Assembly: GCA_031275735.1 (NCBI GenBank)
Contig: JAISOJ010000102.1
Span: 1-40,714, forward strand
Direction of reading: 5' to 3'
DNA from: Dysgonamonadaceae bacterium
GTDB lineage: Bacteria; Bacteroidota; Bacteroidia; Bacteroidales; Azobacteroidaceae
Length of the DNA: 40,714 bases
Shown: piece by piece, positions 22,192-22,646 of the stretch
Numbering within the stretch: position 1 is the first letter of the stretch
How the letters are laid out: every line of letters starts with the position of its first letter
The notes under the pieces: generated by a model
What the model saw: only the letters and a program-made list of their open reading frames with translations
Databases searched by the model: none
Told to the model about the DNA's origin: nothing
Program-made: the position numbers and the translations under genes

Positions 22192-22221
22192 ATTGAATGT
22201 TTAAAAAAAATATTATATTTG
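22192..22221 (+). promoter_or_regulatory. Promoter of the AG-repeat leader
   Basis: ATTG at 22192-22195, 18 nt, then TATATTTG at 22214-22221 match the Bacteroidota consensus. It lies 34 nt ahead of the small ORF. I find no other TAnnTTTG match before the adhesin gene at 22647, so this may also be the adhesin gene's promoter. Confidence 0.6.
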
Positions 22222-22255
22222 CACTCAATTTGAATGAAAAACAACAATTATAAAA

Positions 22256-22393
22256 ATGAATTATCTCTCAAAAAACGGTAGTCAATTAATTATCTTTAAC
22301 GTTCAACAGTTGGATGTTAGCGGATATTTATTAGAGAGAGAGAGAGAGAGAGAGAGAGAGAGAGAGAGAGAGAGAGAGAGATTTAAACCTTAG
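22256..22393 (+). CDS. Small ORF carrying an in-frame (Glu-Arg)8 run from an AG microsatellite
   Basis: ATG 22256 opens a 45-codon frame: 26 residues starting MNYLSKNGSQLIIFNV and ending SGYLL, eight Glu-Arg pairs encoded by the AG repeat, then Phe-Lys-Pro and TAG (22391-22393). It has a good promoter and is followed by two hairpins. I recognise no family. Because AG is a 2-nt unit, copy number sets the frame after the tract. One extra unit (or two fewer) opens 81 more codons to TAA 22626-22628. The remaining frame stops at TAA 22384-22386. It could be a leader peptide whose translation is phase variable. Whether it is translated at all is unproven. Confidence 0.45.
   Translation: MNYLSKNGSQLIIFNVQQLDVSGYLLERERERERERERERERFKP
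22333..22381 (+). repeat. (AG)24 dinucleotide microsatellite
   Basis: There are 24 uninterrupted AG units at 22333-22380, followed by A at 22381. Tracts of this length and purity are rare in bacteria and prone to slipped-strand change. The assembled count may differ from the true or population count. Confidence 0.97.
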
Positions 22394-22455
22394 TTTAAAA
22401 TGCGCTTGCGCGCGTAGTAATAAACATTTCCTTTTAAATAAACAAGAGAAGCTTT

Positions 22456-22484
22456 CCTGCTTTACGCAGGTTTTGTTTCTTTTC
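22456..22484 (+). terminator. First hairpin after the AG-repeat ORF
   Basis: CCTGC (22456-22460) pairs with GCAGG (22466-22470) around TTTAC, followed by the T-rich TTTTGTTTCTTTTC. The stem is short but the tract is convincing for an intrinsic terminator. Confidence 0.45.
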
Positions 22485-22498
22485 AATCCATACGAAAC

Positions 22499-22550
22499 AA
22501 GAGCGTGTGAAAGAAATATAAATTTCTTTCACACGCTCTTTGCGTTTTGT
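22499..22550 (+). terminator. Strong 19-bp hairpin before the adhesin gene
   Basis: A perfect 19-bp stem joins 22499-22517 and 22522-22540 with a 4-nt ATAA loop, followed by TTGCGTTTTG. It should stop or structure transcripts entering from the AG-repeat promoter. It lies inside the alternative frame that opens when the AG tract gains one unit. Confidence 0.65.
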
Positions 22551-22556
22551 CGGAGA

Positions 22557-22594
22557 GGATTTCCAAGTTTAGCCGAAACCGTAAAAATTTGTCA
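22557..22594 (+). repeat. Imperfect direct repeat, downstream copy
   Basis: Partner of 22134-22171 (31 of 38 identical by eye), with looser similarity continuing to about 22628. It sits between the strong hairpin and the adhesin gene. Unlike the first copy it is not followed by a recognisable -7 element. Confidence 0.6.
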
Positions 22595-22646
22595 AAGTAA
22601 GGATTTTAATAGATTTTTTATTGTTTAACAATTAATTTTAAAGCTT

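Follow-up and report, generated by a model that had tools for sequence, protein, structure and literature searches.

In Mycoplasma gallisepticum, each gene of the large vlhA surface gene family carries its own (GAA)n microsatellite, a trinucleotide repeat that lies upstream of the promoter and acts via protein binding, not via the reading frame. In Streptococcus gallolyticus, as set out in the available text of Danne et al. (2014, PMC3894217), GCAGA repeats within a leader ORF of pil1 set its length, and translation up to a stem-loop prevents termination; chloramphenicol and mutants of the start codon and of the terminator were tested, two frames are open and the wild type is in the closed one. 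The trp leader attenuator, as it appears in the accessible part of the same source, also lets the translation of a short leader ORF decide terminator formation, with tryptophan sensed by ribosome stalling (PMC3894217). In human-gut Bacteroidales, the portion of PMC12632263 available to us describes invertible promoters at capsule loci (upxY/upxZ), SusC/SusD and surface proteins.

Here we analyse a leader in a 40,714-nt contig (the window, C112) of a Bacteroidales assembly of 2.43 Mb in 114 contigs (76% complete). The leader is flanked on one side by a DNA polymerase IV gene, which ends at 22028, and on the other by a T9SS adhesin gene (Table 1), and from its organization the region is probably a phase-variable, translation-dependent transcription attenuator whose leader ORF would change frame by slipped-strand mispairing. 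A preliminary description of this DNA had placed a promoter, a 45-codon ORF crossing an AG repeat, two closed frames and an 81-codon open one, two hairpins and the adhesin ATG in this order. Its coordinates were re-derived base for base, and the lone change concerns the bounds of the first hairpin, which begins and ends earlier than the 22456-22484 given there.

Table 1. Features of the leader and of the gene downstream (positions in the window)
Feature	Position	Strand	Remark
Promoter -7 box TATATTTG of the leader transcript	22214..22221	+	Fits TAnnTTTG; putative function
Leader small ORF as assembled, 45 codons, ATG to TAG (22391-22393), crossing the AG tract	22256..22393	+	OFF frame on the model
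Hairpin H1, 9 bp, 3-nt loop, just upstream of the tract	22298..22318	+	-6.0 kcal/mol, z -1.8
(AG)24.5 microsatellite, proposed slipping element	22333..22381	+	Repeat scan
Frame open past both hairpins, 81 codons, TAA 22626-22628	22383..22628	+	Frame reading; proposed ON frame
TAA closing the second frame	22384..22386	+	Frame reading
Terminator-like hairpin 1, U-rich 3' side	22446..22481	+	-14.5 kcal/mol, z -3.9
Terminator-like hairpin 2, perfect 19-bp stem	22499..22540	+	-28 kcal/mol, z -9.3
Downstream gene, 1123-aa surface protein	22647..26018	+	DUF2436, choice-of-anchor J, T9SS type A sorting domain

A 50-nt direct repeat of 76% identity links the sequence before the leader promoter (22122-22171) with that before the adhesin start (22545-22594), and is perhaps a relic of a leader placed into an older promoter region. 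Elsewhere in the window, a 16-nt unit occurs in two perfect tandem copies at 39194-39225. Three other origins or modes of action were set aside. A known RNA family was rejected, since the Rfam 15 scan of 21900-22900 gave 11 matches and none at gathering score. Inversion of the promoter was discarded because, among inverted repeats of at least 13 nt within 21900-22750, only the terminator stem was found and none flanked the promoter. A phage origin was dropped because the degenerate leader pattern had no matches in the viral_contigs collection.

The octamer TAnnTTTG at 22214 is taken by us as the Bacteroidota-type promoter consensus. The earlier observation that the adhesin has no other promoter match agrees with our scans: plus-strand TAnnTTTG is absent from 22222-22646, its single further plus-strand match within 22029-22646 lies at 22042, and no sigma-70-like match was found on the plus strand in 21500-23500. 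The motif alone occurs at chance density across the window (41 found versus 40.4 expected). Of 61 leader loci, however, 38 have it 30-190 nt upstream of the tract, a span of 160 nt, compared with 40 of 445 control stretches of the same size, and positions T1, A2, T5, T6, T7 and G8 of the box are invariant across seven copies of the leader in the own genome.

According to the proposed model, the promoter would yield a leader RNA carrying the small ORF, in which the AG tract would gain or lose units by slipped-strand mispairing; the repeat unit is not a multiple of three, and it lies within an ATG-started leader ORF that would be translated. The closed frames have their stops at 22384 and 22391 and the open frame at 22626. 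In two of the three frames, therefore, ribosomes would stop at 22384 or 22391 and leave, both terminator hairpins would fold, and transcription would end before the adhesin gene, which is the OFF state and the one assembled. In the third frame, ribosomes would trail RNA polymerase through both hairpins, the terminators could not fold, and the adhesin would be transcribed (ON). Slippage in cells, termination, protection by ribosomes and adhesin expression are the steps that we infer, and the sequence itself shows the elements, the frames they leave open or closed, their recurrence across loci and the random-looking states of long AG tracts. On this model, the preliminary description is correct for the window locus in having one of three repeat classes ON and an assembled state that is OFF.

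Several traits are shared with pil1/pil3 as presented in the available text of PMC3894217: a simple sequence repeat with a unit that is not a multiple of three within a leader ORF, a stem-loop terminator ahead of a surface operon, and an OFF frame that stops well upstream, with ON frames ending close to, within or after the hairpin. Like the pil1 wild type in that text, the window copy is assembled in a closed frame (PMC3894217). The same source places GCAGA repeats at two loci of one Firmicute species, whereas the present leaders carry AG or AC, belong to Bacteroidota, form a multi-copy family with several kinds of target, and are known from sequence alone (PMC3894217). The tract of the window leader consists of AG and those of the relatives read of AG or AC, not of GCAGA units; as the repeat unit differs, the leader is an analogue of pil1 by mechanism and not a shown relative by descent. 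Compared with the trp attenuator as outlined in the same text, the decision would be made by a reading frame that a microsatellite sets, and not by a sensed amino acid (PMC3894217). In a largely open-access literature search, none of the texts available described leaders of this kind from Bacteroidota, and the main text of a 2025 review (PMC11868660) does not contain 'leader', 'terminat' or 'gallolyticus'.

The leader belongs to a family. In the own genome, DNA matching located it at seven places (C112, C94, C1, C80, C7, C25 and C78), and a model of the C-part added an eighth, on C18. The open-frame sequence after the tract (..KCACARSNKHFLLNKQEKLS..) aligns with the C-parts of other leader copies. 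Matches to (AG)8 in the 2.43-Mb genome define four tracts only, on C7, C25, C78 and C112, all within leader copies, and in these four copies, with AG tracts of at least 16 nt, the N-part (the first half of the leader, before the tract) and the C-part are assembled in different frames (4/4). The copies on C94, C1 and C80 (L049, L058 and L053) have no long tract, and their halves are fused in a single open frame. The proteins encoded on C94 and C1 are homologous to the T9SS adhesin of the window, and the one on C80 is a more distant homologue. The C1 leader retains no detectable hairpin; tract-less and with its hairpins lost, it looks as if locked on. In addition, five AC tracts of at least 16 nt occur in leader-like settings of the own genome, on C42, C51, C53 and C105 (L239-L242) and on C92 (L231). 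Those on C51 and C105 precede genes that are SusC-like by eye, and on C105 the frame of an upstream ATG passes through a strong-looking hairpin.

A search of related genomes, suggested in the preliminary description, recovered the frame-terminator layout at many loci. The C-part model was positive in 6 of 97 genomes, own included, with 18 loci; the N-part model matched beside the C-part in 16 of these 18, the exceptions being the AC loci L046 and L052, the latter cut by a contig end. Within the GTDB family, 17 of 45 genomes (own included) carry N-part matches; among 393 genomes drawn from the order, to which a stricter cut-off was applied, three do so, again with the own genome among them. Because the models were trained on the seven own-genome copies, distant relatives will be missed. 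One degenerate pattern, applied to 84,980 species genomes, returned 52 loci in 22 genomes as counted by titles, all of which name a Bacteroidales group or 'Bacteroidia'. They include Dysgonomonas hofstadii DSM 104969, Dysgonomonas sp. ZJ279 and BGC7, and a Candidatus Azobacteroides MAG, and many of the MAGs presumably derive from termite or cockroach guts.

Copy number and repeat unit vary among these genomes. Genome G016 has at least 73 N-part matches, a lower bound because every scored candidate matched. The 60 of these places that were read (L143-L162, L183-L222) comprise 40 with AC tracts of at least 15 nt, 12 with AC tracts of 8-14 nt, three with AG tracts of at least 15 nt and five with neither, the AC tracts being read as THTHTH. 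In genome G039, from another genus of the same family, AC stands in place of AG at the tract (L046, L052), which suggests that leaders of one kind have either swapped their repeat unit or acquired a new one independently. Tract length also differs between near-identical copies: in one genome the tract measures 57, 25 and 9 nt in three leaders whose N-parts are identical at 71-74 of 75 bases and whose C-parts are identical at 164-173 of 180-182 columns.

The relation between frame and terminator was evaluated across the family. An initial test on 39 AG loci, in which a 15-nt ribosome footprint was applied and the stretch before the hairpin was shuffled, found a frame reaching the apex of the first strong terminator in 38 loci versus 17.7 expected; when the footprint was omitted, the count was 31 versus 14.6 expected, which 100,000 simulations never attained. 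A wider test started from at most 143 loci (61 from the pattern search and the own genome, tract-bearing hits of the R2 set and two loci of G074), of which 114 were kept after dropping those with fewer than 110 nt after the tract, containing N or near-identical to another. By the criterion used, a terminator was detectable in 49 of the 67 AG loci, and among the 47 AC loci 11 lacked one. In 48 of the 49 AG loci, one or two of the three frames reach the terminator, versus 22.3 expected by shuffling. Since many loci are paralogues or relatives, these counts are not independent, and averaging the switchable fraction over 36 sequence clusters, which corrects for this in part, gives 0.97 versus 0.45 expected. 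The AC set, mostly from G016 with a few loci of G035 and G042, gives 33 of 36 versus 23.1 expected, or 0.88 versus 0.63 over 10 clusters. With this recurrence and the pil1 precedent, the switch proposed in the preliminary description, dependent on translation and on AG count, is the best fit to the data.

Assembled states of long AG tracts look random. Among 31 loci with one open frame the N-frame is ON in 10, and among 11 with two it is ON in 7; these fractions approach the 1/3 and 2/3 that the random frame of an unconstrained slipping tract predicts, with tract lengths taken from assemblies in which the sequence ends inside the tract in 8 of 80 R2-set loci. Short AG tracts are ON in three of five one-frame loci and in the single two-frame locus not (0/1); L061 and L074 have short tracts, yet their N-frames are closed, and in L090 no frame reaches the hairpin. 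In the AC set, two frames read through in 31 of 36 loci, of which 5 of 20 with long and 2 of 11 with short tracts are assembled ON, a bias to the closed frame. Most G016 copies may thus be silent, or many may be dead. The assembly of AC copies with two open frames in the closed one recalls pil1 as it is described in the available text of PMC3894217.

A first alternative is that the tract acts independently of frame, its length adjusting expression in steps by way of RNA folding, RNA stability, spacing or the loading of Rho. Its position in the RNA leader would allow this, and 18 of the 67 AG loci have no intrinsic terminator detected by the criterion used, so that Rho could terminate there. 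We nevertheless regard it as unlikely: frame and terminator are related in nearly every AG locus with a terminator, and, by eye, the two halves are in frame in all eight C-part copies that lack a long tract versus two of the nine assessable tract copies among the 18 loci. The replacement of AG by AC in related leaders also speaks against it, as being a stop-free dinucleotide seems to matter more than the tract's own sequence.

A second alternative holds that the leader ORF encodes a functional, phase-variable small protein, the hairpins being incidental or ending its transcript. The ORF is indeed ATG-started and in a fixed place: of 59 loci, 52 have an open frame that begins with ATG and runs up to the conserved anchor in the N-frame, and each of the shifted frames has one in 2. 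In the R2 set, which consists mostly of paralogues of one genome, the counts are 60 of 60 versus 0 and 1, with only the bases before the anchor used in both cases. An in-frame ATG is absent from 7 of 61 loci, two of which are cut by contig ends. The fused ORFs of tract-less copies would likewise suit a small protein, as would a C-part pN/pS that is lower in frame (0.77) than in the shifted frames (0.94 and 0.92), computed on 15 of the 18 rows with L046, L052 and L058 left out. The N-part, however, has an in-frame pN/pS of 1.01 in one set, where the shifted frames give 0.69 and 0.77, and of 0.86 in a second, where they give 0.84 and 0.78, so that it is no lower in frame than shifted, and the C-parts of the Dysgonomonas copies are unlike those of the window family by eye, yet the frame-terminator layout is kept. 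Moreover, the ON frame often ends within the terminator hairpin. The leader peptides show little or no purifying selection, and a reading frame kept more than its peptide is what a leader ORF, more than a conserved small protein, would be expected to show; with the N-part unconstrained and the C-part weakly constrained, the small-protein reading is not preferred and appears quite improbable.

Least probable, to the point of being very hard to sustain, is a neutral microsatellite followed by a mere terminator or inserted repeat (hairpin 2) and an adhesin promoter further downstream, for which the 50-nt repeat could speak, as its resemblance means that the promoter region may be partly duplicated, but which is at odds with the lack of promoter matches in the ranges scanned, the confinement of all four AG tracts of at least 16 nt in the genome to leader copies, and the recurrence of the layout beside unrelated genes.

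Under the preferred reading, an attenuator controlled by the frame of the leader ORF, the two terminator-like hairpins between the ORF and the surface gene of the window most plausibly act as intrinsic transcription terminators, which ribosomes would block. The structure that RNAalifold gives for the C-part model R1 departs from the terminator, and this model was used for searching only. Hairpin H1 was considered as a core element and rejected as essential, being confined to some subfamilies. Its stem of 8-9 pairs is present in 56 of 60 R2 hits and in 19 of 35 other AG copies, and 26 Dysgonomonas-type copies form a mean of 4.3 of 9 pairs versus 4.4 with re-dealt arms. Elsewhere, too, re-dealt arms come near the observed values, with 8.4 pairs against 8.6 in one of these sets and 6.5 against 6.8 in the other, and because they pair almost as well, H1 covariation is not demonstrated.

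The end of the ON frame relative to the hairpin differs among leaders. The preliminary description had ribosomes arriving beside the adhesin start, which is not general: in eight UpxY-type leaders (L055, L047, L085, L098, L108, L101, L100 and L084), a strong terminator (-13.5 to -28.1 kcal/mol) contains the ON-frame stop 6-10 nt into its 5' arm, although fewer than eight of these cases are independent because L085, L098 and L108 are closely related to one another. That arm would be covered by a ribosome that ends translation there. Their UpxY status varies, with L047, L055, L100 and L108 scoring above the cut-off, L084 matching in part, L085 and L098 the same loci as L050 and L054, and L101 counted without its downstream gene. 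In genome G013, L050 and L054 are leaders that differ mainly in tract length (57 and 25 nt), and the UpxY-like genes behind them are interrupted by in-frame stops, a sign that some copies are decaying. L083 and the Dysgonomonas hofstadii leaders L078 and L099 likewise have a reading frame that ends within the hairpin.

Among the first downstream genes of 34 loci, 19 encode SusC-type receptors, UpxY capsule antiterminators or FISUMP proteins. Eleven are SusC/RagA-type (L073, L078, L083, L086, L092, L099, L103, L106, L109, L111 and L112), as judged by a CarbopepD_reg_2 domain, in most with a TonB plug, or by a SusC/RagA match. Five are NusG/UpxY-like, L047, L055, L100 and L108 lying above the NCBIfam UpxY cut-off and L084 being a partial match, and in L108 a UDP-ManNAc dehydrogenase gene follows UpxY. 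Three are FISUMP proteins (L105, L110 and L048). Nine targets have no Pfam match (L063, L064, L072, L075, L089, L091, L093, L096 and L102), and others encode TIG (L065), GT25 (L082) and WG-repeat (L081) proteins, a PMT_2 match just below cut-off (L061) and an HU-related protein (L059, on C7 of the own genome). One AG leader, L066, precedes a TraG-type conjugation gene, outside the surface-gene theme. In G016, leader copies precede many paralogues that by eye start M..KILVLSAALVLSANLRAQVTIG, and many of its AC-tract copies stand before AQVTIG surface proteins. Target classes are shared with the invertible-promoter systems in the available part of PMC12632263, including UpxY-led capsule operons and SusC/D; unlike those systems, which act by DNA inversion, the switch would lie in the transcribed leader.

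Collectively, we lean towards a reading in which a Bacteroidales lineage uses a portable, multi-copy microsatellite attenuator as a general phase-variation device, with from a few to at least 73 copies per genome, many with tracts that might switch independently, before SusC/RagA, UpxY, FISUMP and T9SS genes. At UpxY, two layers of antitermination would be stacked, and the leader ribosome would decide whether the antiterminator of the capsule operon is made. What appears to be new is pil1-type logic in another phylum, with dinucleotide repeats and in many copies. If this holds, a switch that the available text of PMC3894217 documents at two pilus loci of one Firmicute would be a major gene-control device in another phylum. 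Each genome would contain many independent switches, acting on adhesins, nutrient importers and capsules, and surface phase variation would have a second evolutionary route beside invertible promoters. The model also predicts, from sequence alone, that tract length modulo 3 gives the ON or OFF state of each surface gene, so that the surface repertoires of uncultured symbionts would be readable from long-read metagenomes.
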